A DNA stretch of 64,000 nt from an uncultured Alphaproteobacteria bacterium (GTDB lineage: Bacteria; Pseudomonadota; Alphaproteobacteria; Sneathiellales; Sneathiellaceae). The notes beneath the pieces are model-generated. The model saw only the letters and a list, made by a program, of their open reading frames with translations. It did not search any database and was not told the origin of the DNA. The stretch spans positions 1 to 64,000 of the forward strand of contig CAJXWA010000002.1 of NCBI GenBank assembly GCA_913062525.1, written 5' to 3'. A program made the position numbers and the translations under genes. Positions 42,307-48,394 of this stretch are shown here, piece by piece; position 1 is the first letter of the stretch, and each line of letters opens with the position of its first letter.

Positions 42307-42320
42307 TTGTTGTATATACA
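42307..42320. promoter_or_regulatory. Palindromic site upstream of marR (copy 1)
   Basis: TTGTTGTATATACA contains the perfect 10-bp palindrome TGTATATACA, 25 bases upstream of the MarR start codon. The identical 14-mer recurs at 42788-42801 before the next gene. This pair is the likely operator of the MarR protein. Confidence 0.66.
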
Positions 42321-42344: not shown

Positions 42345-42770
42345 GTGGCTATATCAATGGAAATGCAAGCTCTCGAAGTTTCAAAATCGTGTATTGTCGC
42401 AAGGCTTCGCAAACTCAACCGCGAAGTTAGCGCTATCTACGAGGATTGTTTTCGGCCCTTTGGTTTAACTGTTGCCCAATTTAACCTTCTGATCTCCATT
42501 GGTGCTCACGGGGAAGCGTCTCCCTCGCGATTAGCAAAAGTATTGTCACTCGAAAAATCCACAGTTAGCCGGAATATAGAAAAAATGCATGCCCATAAGT
42601 GGGTCGAAGTCATTCCGCAAGGGGATAAGCGGGTTCACACTCTTGCATTGTCTGACATCGGTGAAAAGTTGGTAGAGGAAGTTCTTCCAGCGTGGCGGAT
42701 CGCACAGCAAAAAACTGAGAAGACCTACGGCCCACTTACCGACCTCTTGAATAAAGTAACGTTCGTCTGA
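42345..42770 (+). CDS. MarR-family transcriptional regulator
   Basis: The 141-residue protein starts at GTG with GGAGGAATGAC upstream. It has the winged helix TVAQFNLLISIGAHGEASPSRLAKVLSLEKSTVSRNIEKMHAHKWVEVIPQGDKRVHTLALSDIGEKL, a full MarR core including the D-x-R wing. Identical palindromes before this gene and the next one suggest it represses itself and the iron-sulfur/SCP2 protein, released by a small ligand. Confidence 0.92.
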   Translation: MAISMEMQALEVSKSCIVARLRKLNREVSAIYEDCFRPFGLTVAQFNLLISIGAHGEASPSRLAKVLSLEKSTVSRNIEKMHAHKWVEVIPQGDKRVHTLALSDIGEKLVEEVLPAWRIAQQKTEKTYGPLTDLLNKVTFV

Positions 42771-42787
42771 AGATATATTTCTGAATA

Positions 42788-42801
42788 TTGTTGTATATAC
42801 A
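42788..42801. promoter_or_regulatory. Palindromic site upstream of the QueG-like gene (copy 2)
   Basis: This is an identical copy of TTGTTGTATATACA, 15 bases before the start codon at 42817 and 17 bases after the MarR stop. A regulator bound here would block initiation of an internal promoter or halt read-through. Confidence 0.66.
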
Positions 42802-42816
42802 TCTAAGGAAAAAATT

Positions 42817-44124
42817 ATGCTTGATATTATTGGTGCCGATGGGCAAGAAAAATCGAAATCGGGCGGTATAGGGTCAGACTGGTTGCGCCAGCTCTGCTTG
42901 GATTGCGGTGCAGATGACGTTGGTTTTGTTGATATTTCTAGTCCAGAGCTTGATGATCAACGGGCAGATATCTTAAATGTTTTTCCAAGAACAAAATCCT
43001 TGATTTCATTTGTTGTGAAAATGAACAAAGAAAATATCAGGACACCCAAACGATCTGTGGCAAATGTGGATTTCCATCACACTGGGGATGATGTTTTACA
43101 TACAGCGCGCAGTATCGTGAAAAAACTGTCAGCGGAAAAGGTTGGGGGTTTGTACCCCTCAATGGGTTTTCCCATGGAGATGGATGATTTTCCCGGCAAA
43201 ACTTGGGTCATATCCCATAAACCTGTGGCTATAGCCGCAGGGCTAGGGAAAATGGGCATTCACCGCAACATTATCCACCCAAAATTTGGGAATTTCATTT
43301 TGCTTGGTACTGTATTGATTGATCACGAGATTGAAACATACGGGGAGCTTCTTGAATACAACCCATGTTTGGAATGCAAGCTATGTGTTGCTGCCTGCCC
43401 GGTAGGAGCCATTGGACCTGATGGAAATTTTGATTTTGCGGCTTGTTACAATCATAATTATCATGAATTTATGGGCGGCTTTACGGCGCTGACTGAAACC
43501 ATTGCTGATGCTAAAGATGCCAAAGATCTCCGCACAAAAATTGATGATAATGAAAGCGCCTCTTGGTGGCAAAGCCTGTCTTTTGGCGCAAACTATAAGG
43601 CGGCATATTGTCTCGCTGTCTGCCCCGCCGGGGATGATGTCATTGGCCCGTATCTTGAAAATAAATCGGCCTTTAAGAAAGAAATATTGAGACCACTTAC
43701 GGAGAAAAGTGAAGCCATTTATGTGGTGCCTGGCACAGATGCACAAGCCCATGTGGAAAAGCGATTTAAGAATAAACGTGTTCGTCTGATGAGGTCTCAT
43801 CTGAGACCAACATCCATCGCAGGTTTTATTCAAAGTATACCGCTTGTTTTTAATCGTCACAAATCGGATGGCCTAGACATTGTGTATCATTTTGATTTCA
43901 CTGGTAAAGAAGAAATACAGGCAACGGTTACAATCAGAGACAAAACCATTAGCGTTGTGGACGGTCTGCAGGGAATGGCTGATTTTACTTTGAAAGCAGA
44001 TAGCAAGGCATGGCTGTCATTCCTTCGAAAAGATAAATCATTGCCCATGTTATTGCTAACAAGGAAAATCCGGCCCAAAGGCCCAATTAAACATCTGAAG
44101 TCATTTAGCCGATGTGTTCGCTAA
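42817..44124 (+). CDS. QueG-like 4Fe-4S protein fused to an SCP2 sterol-carrier domain
   Basis: The 435-residue protein has an N-terminal part resembling epoxyqueuosine reductase and reductive dehalogenases: KMGIHRNIIHPKFGNFILLGTVLID near 145, ferredoxin cluster CLECKLCVAACPVGAIG at 184 to 199, and further cysteines near 210 and in YCLAVCP at about 265. Residues of about 330 to 430 (GLDIVYHFDFTG...TLKADSKAWLSFLRKD) match an SCP2-like lipid-binding domain. The combination suggests reductive chemistry on a hydrophobic compound. It is probably not the queuosine enzyme itself, because of the SCP2 domain and MarR control. Substrate unknown. Confidence 0.8.
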   Translation: MLDIIGADGQEKSKSGGIGSDWLRQLCLDCGADDVGFVDISSPELDDQRADILNVFPRTKSLISFVVKMNKENIRTPKRSVANVDFHHTGDDVLHTARSIVKKLSAEKVGGLYPSMGFPMEMDDFPGKTWVISHKPVAIAAGLGKMGIHRNIIHPKFGNFILLGTVLIDHEIETYGELLEYNPCLECKLCVAACPVGAIGPDGNFDFAACYNHNYHEFMGGFTALTETIADAKDAKDLRTKIDDNESASWWQSLSFGANYKAAYCLAVCPAGDDVIGPYLENKSAFKKEILRPLTEKSEAIYVVPGTDAQAHVEKRFKNKRVRLMRSHLRPTSIAGFIQSIPLVFNRHKSDGLDIVYHFDFTGKEEIQATVTIRDKTISVVDGLQGMADFTLKADSKAWLSFLRKDKSLPMLLLTRKIRPKGPIKHLKSFSRCVR

Positions 44125-44137
44125 GCCAATGACGATG

Positions 44138-45178
44138 CTATGAGGCGCCTTTTCTTAAAATAACCTTGATAATGATAGGGGTTACAAAAACGATGGCAAA
44201 CAAGCGCATGGCATGATGGGTCGTCACAAACGCTGGATCAACGCCGAGCGATAGAGCGGCTAGTGCCATTTCCGCAAAACCACCGGGCGATAGGGCGAGG
44301 ATCAATGCCTCAAACGAATGCCCGGTGATCAGGGATAGAAAATAGGCACTTGAAAACGTCACGGAGAGCATGAGAACAGTCATGCCCATGGCGAGAAGAA
44401 TTACGCGGCCTACTTCTTTGAAGGATATGCCAAAGAAACGAGAGCCTAGCGCGCTGCCCAATATCAGTTGGATGATGATCGAGGCAAGTTCAGGCGGCTC
44501 GCTTGTAATGGCTCCACTTAAATGAACCGCCGCACTGAGTATCAAAGGACCTGTCAGACGGTGAGCTGGAATTCTGCAGATTTTTGCTAGGAACACCCCC
44601 GTAATAGCGATTACGACTAAGGAGATAGTTTCTTGCAGACTCCAATACTGGATATCATCAGTGAGACTGATCTTTTCCAAGTCAAACCAGTAGGTCAATA
44701 CAAACGGGATAAATAGAAGGACAGATACAACGCGACAGGCATGTGTGAGTGTCAGTTTTTTGATGTCGGCGCCGGCTTCCTCGCCCATGATTGACATTTC
44801 GGACAGCCCACCGGGCAATCCAGAAAAAAGCGCTGTAACCGCGTCCATGCCGGCAATTTTTCGGCAATAAACTTGGCCGATTGTCGTGATAACAGCAACG
44901 TAAATAACGGCGGCCGTAAGGGTAGGTATCCAATTGGGCACTTGGTCGATAACTTCAGGGGTAAATGTACCCCCAAGCATGATACCGATAACTATAATAA
45001 TGTAATTTCGGATGCTTTTTGAGACTTCAATGGGAGCCCCTAGCAAGCTTGCAAGTAAAGTTGCGCAAAGCGCGCCCAACAACCACGGCAGCGGGAAGTG
45101 CATTGCACTGAATAAAATCCCGCCCGCACAGCCGATGCTAAGGGCAAGTGCGAAGCGGGTAAGGGATGAGTTGATCAT
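44138..45178 (-). CDS. AbrB-family membrane protein
   Basis: The 346-residue integral membrane protein has about 10 helices and belongs to the AbrB duplication family (ammonia monooxygenase-like, COG3180). Each half shows the pattern seen in FPLPWLLGALCATLLASLLGAPIEV and SGLPGGLSEMSIMGEEAGAD, with the repeat ALSPGGFAEMALAALSLGVDPAFVTTHHAMRLF. These proteins are putative transporters or regulators and often sit beside Tct genes. It follows tctA by only 8 bases and so belongs to the operon. Confidence 0.88.
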   Translation of the reverse strand: MINSSLTRFALALSIGCAGGILFSAMHFPLPWLLGALCATLLASLLGAPIEVSKSIRNYIIIVIGIMLGGTFTPEVIDQVPNWIPTLTAAVIYVAVITTIGQVYCRKIAGMDAVTALFSGLPGGLSEMSIMGEEAGADIKKLTLTHACRVVSVLLFIPFVLTYWFDLEKISLTDDIQYWSLQETISLVVIAITGVFLAKICRIPAHRLTGPLILSAAVHLSGAITSEPPELASIIIQLILGSALGSRFFGISFKEVGRVILLAMGMTVLMLSVTFSSAYFLSLITGHSFEALILALSPGGFAEMALAALSLGVDPAFVTTHHAMRLFAIVFVTPIIIKVILRKGAS

Positions 45179-45186
45179 TGAAAGAT

Positions 45187-46704
45187 TTAGTCTCCGTCGG
45201 CCACGTTGATGGAGTTTGTTTTTAATCTGTATTTTCGGAAAATGGGAATAACGATTAACAGAACTCCAACCAGCAATAGGCCCAACGTCATTGGGCGTTC
45301 ATACATGAATGCAGCCCCATCTGTTAAATTTACAGCGCGGGCGAAATTATTTTCCATCATACCCCCAAGAATGAACCCAATGAGAAGCGGAGGCAGTGGA
45401 TAATCCGCAAACCGGAGGAGGGTTGCTCCTATTCCAAGTCCTATCAAAATTAGCAACTCTGTTGCGTTATTCTGGCCTATATAGGCGCCGATCATTGTGA
45501 AAAATAGAATAAACGGAATTAGATAATTGCGCGGTATTGTTAGAAGTTTGGCGATATAAGGGATCATCGGCAGGTTGAGGATTAAAAGAACCACATTGCC
45601 AATGTACATTGAAATAATAACGGCCCAAAAAATCGATGGATTGTCGATCATTAGCCGTGGCCCGGGGTTGACGTTAAGGGCAACCAGAGCACCAAGCAAA
45701 ATAGCAGTTGTCCCAGATCCCGGAATTCCTAATGTGAGCAACGGCACGAATGATCCGGTGCAAGCTGCATTATTTGCAGCTTCTGGGGCCGCGAGCCCTT
45801 TGATGGATCCTTTGCCAAACTCCTCCTGCTCGGCTCCCTTAGCAATGTTCCGCTCAACCGCATAACCAAGGAAAGAGGCGATGGTGGCTCCAGCACCAGG
45901 CATCACACCAATTAAGAAGCCTTGAATAGATTGGCGGGCAATGACAGGAGCAATTTTTTTGGCCTCTTCTTTGGTGATGCGCAAATCTTTAATGGCTTGG
46001 TTATTCGCGCTGGTATTGCTTTTGTTTGGATTAAGAACAAGGAACAGGGCTTCGGGCAAGGCAAACAACGCCATAGCCAGTGTTACAAAGCTGAAACCTG
46101 ATTGAAGGTCTGAAAGTCCCATTGTAAAACGAGGAGCATTGAATAAGGCAGACTCGCCGACAGTTGCCAGCATCAAACCCGCGATTGTCATCATTAATGC
46201 CTTGGCAACTTTACCTGAACCGGCAAACGCAGCAATGGCGGACAGGCCAACAACCATTAACGCAAAGTACACAGCGGAATGGAAAAGGAGTGCAACGCTA
46301 GAAAGAGCTGGCGCAAAGAATAACAGGAGAATAGCGCCCACTGTTCCGCCGCAGAAGGAGGAAATAGCCGCAATGGTAAGGGCTTTACCGGCTTTACCTT
46401 GCCGTGCCATTGGATAACCGTCGAAGGCTGTTGCGACGGTGCCAGCAACCCCCGGTGCATTTATTAGAATTGAAGAAGTGGAGCCACCAAAAATGGCGCC
46501 GTAATAGACGCCTGCCAGCAAAATAAGGGCGGCAGATGGATCACCAATGTTGATCGCCACAGGGATCATTATGGCAATAATCGACATAGGGCCAAGCCCC
46601 GGAAGCATGCCGATCAAGGTGCCGATTAGACAGCCAAATACGACAAGAAATAGATTTTGTAAGGAAAAGGCCGTTTCTAGGCCAAGCATAATACCTTCAA
46701 GCAT
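45187..46704 (-). CDS. tctA: TctA, large membrane subunit of a tripartite tricarboxylate transporter
   Basis: The 505-residue protein has 11 to 12 helices and conserved TctA segments: GTLIGMLPGLGPMSIIAIMIPVA, GVYYGAIFGGSTSSILINAPG, GVMPGAGATIASFLGYAVERN and TLGIPGSGTTAILLGAL. It forms the Na+- or proton-coupled channel that takes a carboxylate from TctC. Citrate is the type substrate, but the real ligand is not predictable. It lies in the order tctC-tctB-tctA-abrB on the minus strand. Confidence 0.94.
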   Translation of the reverse strand: MLEGIMLGLETAFSLQNLFLVVFGCLIGTLIGMLPGLGPMSIIAIMIPVAINIGDPSAALILLAGVYYGAIFGGSTSSILINAPGVAGTVATAFDGYPMARQGKAGKALTIAAISSFCGGTVGAILLLFFAPALSSVALLFHSAVYFALMVVGLSAIAAFAGSGKVAKALMMTIAGLMLATVGESALFNAPRFTMGLSDLQSGFSFVTLAMALFALPEALFLVLNPNKSNTSANNQAIKDLRITKEEAKKIAPVIARQSIQGFLIGVMPGAGATIASFLGYAVERNIAKGAEQEEFGKGSIKGLAAPEAANNAACTGSFVPLLTLGIPGSGTTAILLGALVALNVNPGPRLMIDNPSIFWAVIISMYIGNVVLLILNLPMIPYIAKLLTIPRNYLIPFILFFTMIGAYIGQNNATELLILIGLGIGATLLRFADYPLPPLLIGFILGGMMENNFARAVNLTDGAAFMYERPMTLGLLLVGVLLIVIPIFRKYRLKTNSINVADGD

Positions 46705-46719
46705 TGATATGTCTCCAGC

Positions 46720-47199
46720 TTAGCCCATGAACCATGGAAGTGGTTTTAAAAAAATACCGAGAACTTCTTGCACTAAATACCAGATTGTTCCGGCTCCAAT
46801 CAGTGAGGAGGCAAGCATTATATGCAGTCTGCGTTCCCCCAAAATCCAGCCACAGCCAACGAGAAAGGCCACAGTGGAGGGAATAAAACCTAAGGGGCGT
46901 AGCAAAACAGCGTACAGGGTCATCGCAATGAGAAGACCAAGCGCTTGTCCCCAGTTATAGTCTCGCAAACGACTAAAATCTATATCGCCATCAGTGAGGC
47001 TTTCGGCGGGCACCTGCTTTTTTGACAGAATAATAATGCTAGAAATAAGGATACCCAAAACACTTAACGCCAGTGGCATGGTGTTTGGTAAGAAGACCAT
47101 GTTCAGTTCAAACGGTAGCAATGGATAAGTGTATGATGCATACCCGTAAACTATCGAAACCGTCAGAAAAAGCACGGCAATGCACTTGTCCAATGTCAT
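46720..47199 (-). CDS. tctB: TctB, small membrane subunit
   Basis: The 159-residue protein has four hydrophobic helices, matching the poorly conserved TctB family (FLTVSIVYGYASYTYPLLPFE at the N-terminus, PLGFIPSTVAFLVGCGWILGERR in the third region). ATG at 47199 is preceded by ATAGGAGTTCCAGCGC. Its ribosome binding site lies in one copy of a 12-bp direct repeat whose other copy forms a hairpin upstream. Confidence 0.87.
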   Translation of the reverse strand: MTLDKCIAVLFLTVSIVYGYASYTYPLLPFELNMVFLPNTMPLALSVLGILISSIIILSKKQVPAESLTDGDIDFSRLRDYNWGQALGLLIAMTLYAVLLRPLGFIPSTVAFLVGCGWILGERRLHIMLASSLIGAGTIWYLVQEVLGIFLKPLPWFMG

Positions 47200-47204
47200 G
47201 CGCT

Positions 47205-47257
47205 GGAACTCCTATTACATATGTTTTGAGGACCGGAACTCCTATTCGAAGTTCCGG
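47205..47257 (-). repeat. Hairpin and duplicated Shine-Dalgarno segment between tctC and tctB
   Basis: CCGGAACT / AGTTCCGG (47233-47257) is a perfect 8-bp stem with a 9-base loop. GGAACTCCTATT occurs at 47205-47216 and again 30 bases away at 47235-47246; on the minus strand this reads AATAGGAGTTCC and contains the tctB ribosome binding site. The hairpin has no T-run, so it may protect the tctC message from decay rather than terminate. Confidence 0.6.
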
Positions 47258-47269
47258 CTAAATTTGGCG

Positions 47270-48253
47270 CTAGAGGAAGCCTAGCTTTTTCATCAAATCT
47301 TTGATGACAGCTTCTTGGTTGCCAAGGAAGCTTTTGAAGTCAGCGCCCGAGTTATGGATGTTGACCCAGCCGTTGCGTTTGCGAACAACTTCCCATTCAG
47401 GAGTGCTATACATTTTGGTAATGGCTGCGCGGTATGCATCTGCTTTAGCGGCAGGAAGGCCCGGTGCAGCAAAGAACCCACGCCAGTTTACAAACTCAGC
47501 GTCATAGCCAAGTTCCTTCAATGTTGGCGCATCTTTAAACGCATCGTTTCTTTCAGGGCCAGTCATGCCGATGATTTTAACTTCACCTGCTTTAGCAAGG
47601 GCTACAGCCTCAGAGAAACCAGTTGAAAGCGCTTGGATTTCGCCGGAAAGAAGAGCTGCCATGGCTTTACCGCCAGCATCATATGGAATGTATTTTACTT
47701 TGGTTGGGTCTTCCCCCGCAGATTGCATAGCAAGAGCTGCAACCAAGTGATCCATGCCGCCGGGTACTGATCCGCCGCCAATAGCGACACTTCTTGGGTT
47801 TGCTTTATAGGCAGTCACAAGATCTTTAAAGGAATTTAGTTTGCTGTCTTTTCCAACAACAAATGCTGCGTAATCACCGATTGTACCGGCGATCATTGTA
47901 AGATCGCGGAAATTATGAGGAAAACGCCCAACAAGCGAGCGGATAATGATGGGAGTTGAGTTGACCATCAATGTCCAGTGGCTGGATGCAGCATTTTCAA
48001 TAAGATACCCAATGGCTTTACCACCGCCGCCACCAGACATGTTTTCATAAGAAGCCGTACCGACAATGCCAGATTTTGTTAGTGCTTCACCAGTACCGCG
48101 GGCCGTTCCATCCCAACCACCACCAGCTCCGCCGGGGATAAGGAAGTGGAGTTTTTCAAGATCAGCAGCTTGTGCCGGTGCTGCACTCATTACAGCCGTA
48201 ATACCGACAACCGCAAGCGCAGAAAAAACTGCGCGACGTGAAAATTTATACAT
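47270..48253 (-). CDS. tctC: TctC, periplasmic solute receptor
   Basis: The protein is 327 residues from the ATG at 48253 behind TGGGAGGCAAAATTTT; the track GTG start is 15 codons earlier. It has a signal peptide with RR (SRRAVFSALAVVGITAVMSAAPAQA-AD) and TctC marks HFLIPGGAGGGWDGTARGTGEAL near residue 35 and VAIGGGSVPGGMDHL near 155. It captures the carboxylate for TctAB. An OmpR-type promoter is seen upstream. Confidence 0.93.
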   Translation of the reverse strand: MYKFSRRAVFSALAVVGITAVMSAAPAQAADLEKLHFLIPGGAGGGWDGTARGTGEALTKSGIVGTASYENMSGGGGGKAIGYLIENAASSHWTLMVNSTPIIIRSLVGRFPHNFRDLTMIAGTIGDYAAFVVGKDSKLNSFKDLVTAYKANPRSVAIGGGSVPGGMDHLVAALAMQSAGEDPTKVKYIPYDAGGKAMAALLSGEIQALSTGFSEAVALAKAGEVKIIGMTGPERNDAFKDAPTLKELGYDAEFVNWRGFFAAPGLPAAKADAYRAAITKMYSTPEWEVVRKRNGWVNIHNSGADFKSFLGNQEAVIKDLMKKLGFL

Positions 48254-48394
48254 AAAATTTTGCCTCCCATTAGGTTTTTGTAATATGGCGTATCGCACAA
48301 GTCGAAGGGTGAATAAAGTTATACTCTAACGTTTACTTAGAATCCGAAATGTCGTCCCCGTTTCACCCAACCGCTGTACCCTGAAATACAACCA

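Follow-up and report, generated by a model that had tools for sequence, protein, structure and literature searches.

A QueG/RdhA-like iron-sulfur protein fused to an SCP2 lipid-carrier domain and paired with a MosR-like MarR regulator

We found a 435-residue open reading frame that joins an iron-sulfur core resembling those of QueG and the reductive dehalogenases (RdhA) to a sterol-carrier (SCP2) domain. It lies directly downstream of a MarR-family regulator gene in the window, the whole 64,000-nucleotide stretch of DNA analysed here. The features of the locus are as follows.

42307..42320, no strand: putative operator copy 1, TTGTTGTATATACA with the palindromic core TGTATATACA, upstream of the MarR gene and beside a TATAAT-like box
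42345..42770, forward strand: MarR-family regulator, MosR-like, with an N-terminal sensor-type Cys16 (Pfam MarR_2, 46.5 bits)
42788..42801, no strand: putative operator copy 2, TTGTTGTATATACA, upstream of the enzyme gene
42817..44124, forward strand: enzyme ORF, ATG start, 435 aa, QueG/RdhA-like iron-sulfur core fused to SCP2
42862..43356, forward strand: N-terminal corrinoid-binding-type (nitroreductase-like) domain, residues 16-180, from a profile match to QueG 5d6s
43357..43641, forward strand: ferredoxin-like region, residues 181-275, from a Fer4_16 match at 184-271 and column counts
43600-43602, forward strand: codon of A262, in place of the eighth cysteine (ligand assignment from St QueG, PMC4646009)
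43873..44109, forward strand: SCP2 lipid-carrier domain, residues 353-431, from PF02036 above the gathering cut-off, pLDDT and Foldseek

The first-pass annotation of this DNA had proposed the fusion of a QueG/RdhA-like core with SCP2, and Pfam, AlphaFold and Foldseek all bear it out. In the domain-architecture search that it had suggested, SCP2 is above the Pfam cut-off in several members: PF02036 matches residues 353-431 of the window protein with 24.4 bits (cut-off 21.3) and its relatives with 29.9-42.7 bits. The C-terminus, on whose SCP2 folding the annotation depended, is predicted with high confidence to have that fold. Its pLDDT is about 92 in an AlphaFold model built from 61 relatives, and among its Foldseek matches are SCP2, UbiJ and alkylsulfatase C-terminal domains including SdsA1. 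The domain thus shares its fold and Pfam membership with the SCP2 family (PF02036) and the alkylsulfatase C-terminal domains (SdsA1, YjcS), but differs from them in being joined to an iron-sulfur reductase core. The annotated CxxCxxCxxxCP motif and further cysteines are likewise present, as C184, C187, C190, C194 (followed by proline), C210, C265 and C269 (followed by proline), and the double-cluster domain Fer4_16 matches residues 184-271 with 26.2 bits, slightly below its cut-off of 30. The iron-sulfur core is poorly modelled in the first AlphaFold prediction (pTM 0.45), the N-terminal part of which nevertheless matches QueG and PceA in Foldseek. A core-only model is better (pTM 0.70), with possible bias from five QueG rows in its alignment, and QueG and RdhA structures, including PceA and NpRdhA, make up all 46 of its PDB matches at E<=0.001. 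The first model, the alignment of which contained no QueG rows, gave the same families.

Characterised class III B12-type reductases form two groups, QueG and the RdhAs. QueG (PDB 5d6s, 5d08; TIGR00276) shares with the enzyme the corrinoid-binding-type domain, the ferredoxin region and, save for one missing ligand, the cysteine spacing, and is the best sequence and fold match to the core. The family profile matches St QueG (5d6s) at E 7e-9, and hhalign aligns the family to the QueG of the genus with a probability of 97.6. A loop of the pattern SHKPVA..GLGxMGIHRNxIHPKFGNF is conserved within residues 16-180. However, the QueG model TIGR00276 scores only 51.4 bits against an equivalog cut-off of 200 and covers residues 48-210 alone; QueG ends in HEAT repeats where the enzyme has SCP2; and the equivalent of C236 is Ala or Ser, while that of Tyr101 is absent. 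The window's genome also carries a separate QueG-like ORF (G000:C90). Model scores, active-site residues and this separate gene together rule out that the enzyme is QueG itself. A phage or viral origin was rejected as well, since no viral contig or PHROG match was found and the phage hits are partial and QueG-like. The self-sufficient catabolic RdhAs (BhbA and JtRdhA; also NpRdhA) share the core fold. They differ in that the enzyme has neither their duplicated core nor the Tyr of their Y-K/R dyad, carries SCP2, and scores far below the subfamily cut-off of the RDH model TIGR02486 (24.4 bits vs 160). We would file the enzyme under the QueG/RdhA kind, as an uncharacterised branch that bears a lipid-carrier domain, and count it in neither named family.

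The cluster ligands set this branch apart. The QueG of S. thermophilus binds its distal cluster through C184, C187, C190 and C243, and its B12-proximal cluster through C194, C210, C236 and C239 (PMC4646009). The distal equivalents in the enzyme are complete (C184, C187, C190 and C269). Those of the proximal cluster are C194, C210, A262 and C265, that is, three cysteines. In the alignment of 61 relatives the seven cluster cysteines are nearly invariant, and position 262 is Ala in 56 members and Ser in five, never Cys. The segment x262-x2-C265-x3-C269-P aligns to QueG without gaps, which makes plain where the ligand is missing. With seven rather than eight conserved cysteines, two full all-Cys clusters are not to be assumed. 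A catalytic Tyr is reported to be common to all three enzymes compared in the QueG study, QueG and two RdhAs (PMC4646009). The aligned segment of the family consensus contains no equivalent, its place being taken by V93 in one alignment and F86 in another, and the D-Y-H active-site motif of QueG is not conserved in the family. H134 was considered as the counterpart of the QueG catalytic Asp and dropped after profile alignment; D123 or E121 may correspond to it, or no residue at all. Judging from sequence conservation, H87, H149, H154, H213 and E121 are candidate replacement residues, each kept in at least 60 of the 61 relatives. The first-pass annotation had implied the full cofactor and active-site set of QueG and RdhA; in this it went too far, as one cluster cysteine and the catalytic Tyr are absent, and for the same reason the cofactor content may differ from that of QueG and RdhA.

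An enzyme that works without B12 has also to be weighed. Here the open iron site of the three-cysteine proximal cluster would directly bind or reduce the substrate, or the nitroreductase-like domain would hold another cofactor. Replacement of a B12-proximal-cluster ligand by A262 or S262 in 61 of 61 members, leaving seven cysteines instead of eight, speaks for such an enzyme, as do the conserved H87, H149, H154 and H213, which could act instead. Yet the corrinoid-domain loop is close to those of QueG and RdhA, and the fourth ligand may be His213 or another residue, so we regard a B12-free enzyme as a minority reading, albeit one to be taken seriously. As a cobalamin enzyme would require, B12-binding proteins are encoded in 30 of 30 carrier genomes tested, which is a weak test, as 12 of 14 control genomes were also positive.

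MarR is the sole widely conserved neighbour of the enzyme gene. It is found at 54 of 84 loci, mostly directly upstream and on the same strand, and its C16, R22 and R26 are invariant in 53 of 53 relatives. The closest solved relative is 4fx0 (MosR) at E 3e-35, the next match being at 6e-16. PDB 4fx0 and 4fx4 are structures of MosR, an oxidation-sensing MarR regulator of M. tuberculosis, and this repressor is thought to be released once a Cys10-Cys12 disulphide forms (PMC5823404). The Cys10 equivalent is the invariant C16 (53/53), while a Cys is found at the Cys12 equivalent in 31 of the 53, which thus keep the CxC pair. MosR differs in its target, and its second Cys is replaced by V18 in the window MarR, which has one of the two sensor cysteines and, lacking the Cys12 equivalent, would need a one-cysteine mechanism.

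The putative operator ties the two genes together. In its extended form, the exact TTGTATATACA occurs at two sites in the 3.5-Mb genome, before the MarR gene and before the enzyme gene. With up to one mismatch allowed, TGTATATACA lies upstream at 48 of the 84 loci, where 0.007 sites per 250 bp of flank would be expected, and it tracks MarR, being present at 42 of 54 loci with the regulator vs 6 of 30 without. Held-out loci, which had not been used in finding TGTATATACA, gave 11 of 13 with MarR vs 1 of 26 without it. The annotation had the upstream MarR sense the hydrophobic compound: the link between regulator and enzyme is upheld, by an operator that recurs across phyla, but direct ligand sensing finds no support, the regulator being akin to MosR, which senses thiol oxidation. 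A wider regulon was considered and rejected, as the other exact TTGTATATACA sites inspected in the genus mostly lie between hutF/hutI-like (histidine-utilisation) genes, and such sites are also found in genus genomes that have no copy of the enzyme. In five genus relatives (L106, L107, L108, L118, L120) the palindrome TTGTATATACAA sits between divergent hutF- and hutI-like genes. Two unrelated regulators thus appear to share one operator sequence.

Electron donors are encoded beside the enzyme in several relatives. An NAD(P)H electron-transfer gene directly follows it at 10 of 10 SCP2-bearing actinobacterial loci. Eight of these loci encode PDR-type NAD(P)H/2Fe-2S reductases, 63-75% identical to the first, and two encode one of the ferredoxin-FprB type. 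In a planctomycete protein (L059) the open frame runs on into a C-terminal FAD/NAD/2Fe-2S reductase. No reductase gene adjoins the enzyme at the window locus. Core-only actinobacterial loci have no such donors within 1.5 kb, and since these forms have neither, SCP2 and donor are not obligatory for the core. The self-sufficient catabolic RdhAs are NADPH-driven and active in air, and the PDR arrangement in the relatives parallels them (PMC10463259), the donor adjoining the core or being fused to it as in BhbA and JtRdhA.

This parallel, together with the fold match to PceA and NpRdhA, would suit a catabolic, respiration-independent reductive dehalogenase acting on lipophilic organohalides. We consider such an activity improbable, given the RDH model score (24 vs 160 bits), the missing Tyr of the Y-K/R dyad, and a length of 435 aa with no duplicated vestigial core. 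Moreover, no haloaromatic-pathway neighbours recur across the loci of the relatives. A related alpha/beta hydrolase gene lies near the enzyme at seven loci (L032, L067, L088, L077, L102, L083 and L104), which span Methylomirabilota, a gammaproteobacterium, Streptomyces and Mycolicibacterium; it would fit in a pathway for lipophilic esters or epoxides but is not decisive. On two Priestia plasmids (L023 and L024) a TetR regulator gene precedes the enzyme gene, and downstream lie fabF and genes for an ABC permease, an SDR and a MaoC dehydratase, a set that hints at a cluster concerned with lipids. In the window itself, an AbrB-family membrane protein gene adjoins a complete TctABC tripartite tricarboxylate transporter set (44138-48298, reverse strand). 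The window neighbours LysE exporter, AbrB/TctABC and ADH were rejected as partners of the enzyme, as they are not conserved in relatives.

Taken as a whole, the evidence leads us to favour, with some confidence, an inducible reductase that draws on NAD(P)H and acts on a lipophilic compound, which is probably oxidised or electrophilic. The annotation's reduction of a hydrophobic compound survives as the reading with the most support, strengthened by the adjoining and fused NAD(P)H reductases. The data show the architecture, the homology, the conserved residues, the operator and, in relatives, the donor linkage, from which we infer cobalamin, lipid binding, redox sensing and the class of substrate. 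By analogy with MosR, the MarR protein would bind the TGTATATACA operators before its own gene and before the enzyme gene, and would release them upon oxidation or modification of its N-terminal cysteine. NAD(P)H would feed electrons, by way of a flavin/2Fe-2S or ferredoxin reductase, into the distal cluster (C184, C187, C190, C269), from which they would reach the three-cysteine proximal cluster (C194, C210, C265) and finally an active site of the corrinoid type, which holds base-off cobalamin in homologues and may do so here. The SCP2 domain would bind or deliver the lipophilic substrate, most likely an oxidised or electrophilic lipid or a lipophilic xenobiotic such as an epoxide, peroxide, quinone or organohalide, the removal of which would amount to detoxification or repair.

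One specific form of this reaction is QueG-type deoxygenation of oxidised lipids carried by SCP2, that is, a lipid-epoxide (or lipid-peroxide) reductase under MosR-like induction. Epoxide reduction by QueG is the nearest characterised chemistry (PMC4646009), and both the SCP2 domain and the MosR-like sensor would fit. Nonetheless, the Tyr of QueG is absent, the D-Y-H motif is not conserved and the substrate is purely conjectural, which makes this version unlikely as it stands. More broadly, alongside QueG and RdhA the class III corrinoid/iron-sulfur enzymes may have a third functional branch, of which this reductase would be a member. Such a branch would have lost the Tyr and one proximal ligand, and would combine a site-differentiated three-Cys cluster, lipids presented by SCP2 and an oxidation-sensing repressor; we offer this as a tentative proposal that we rate somewhat below even. 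The known chemistry of the superfamily would be broadened by a third group in which an altered cluster site goes with a lipid carrier and a linked NAD(P)H donor. The family is widespread, being found in many aerobic lineages and in hundreds of genomes under an uninformative name. Its donor genes, operator and likely inducer class make its function directly testable.

Tblastn and pattern scans of genome contigs gave more than 500 candidate relatives. The best 80 belong to about a dozen phyla, among them Cyanobacteriota, Planctomycetota, Nitrospirota, Actinomycetota, Acidobacteriota and KSB1, and outside close kin they share 56-63% identity with the window protein; over these phyla the full-length homologues are 53-63% identical to it. 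The same scans found full-length homologues on Nostoc and Priestia plasmids. Where records are named, the product is given only as "SCP2 sterol-binding domain-containing protein". In the window's family 7 genomes out of 26 carry the gene; the counts are 11/289 in its class, 19/297 in the actinobacterial class sampled, 15/145 in the cyanobacterial class and 8/199 in the planctomycete phylum. Rows of the tree mostly group by phylum, but not throughout: a Nitrospinota row, for one, stands beside Sneathiella-type rows. Occurrence is patchy and horizontal transfer of the gene is likely; the MarR-enzyme pair is probably a small, self-regulated and mobile module of patchy spread. A literature search, with most subscription papers outside its scope, returned nothing relevant on SCP2 paired with QueG or a reductive dehalogenase. 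The annotation's remark that no characterised enzyme has this layout thus agrees with the papers searched, but the layout is widespread and not unique.

Core plus SCP2 is the architecture of most members. Many actinobacterial members are core-only, and four others have a divergent C-terminal part, unrecognised by Pfam in the one tested. That some actinobacterial forms do without SCP2, and that the protein is uncharacterised, could be taken to favour a non-catalytic lipid-carrier, electron-transfer or sensor protein built from SCP2 and a ferredoxin. The dense conservation of N-terminal-domain residues across phyla and the dedicated reductases suit an enzyme better, and we hold a non-catalytic role to be very improbable. 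A core+SCP2 copy and a core-only copy coexist in one Mycolicibacterium genome (L053, L135, L154), which suggests that each form may have a role of its own. In an alphaproteobacterial member (L134:1501-2736, reverse strand) the core is 40% and the SCP2 domain 54% identical to those of the window protein, which suggests, from these identities, a mosaic or recombined gene.
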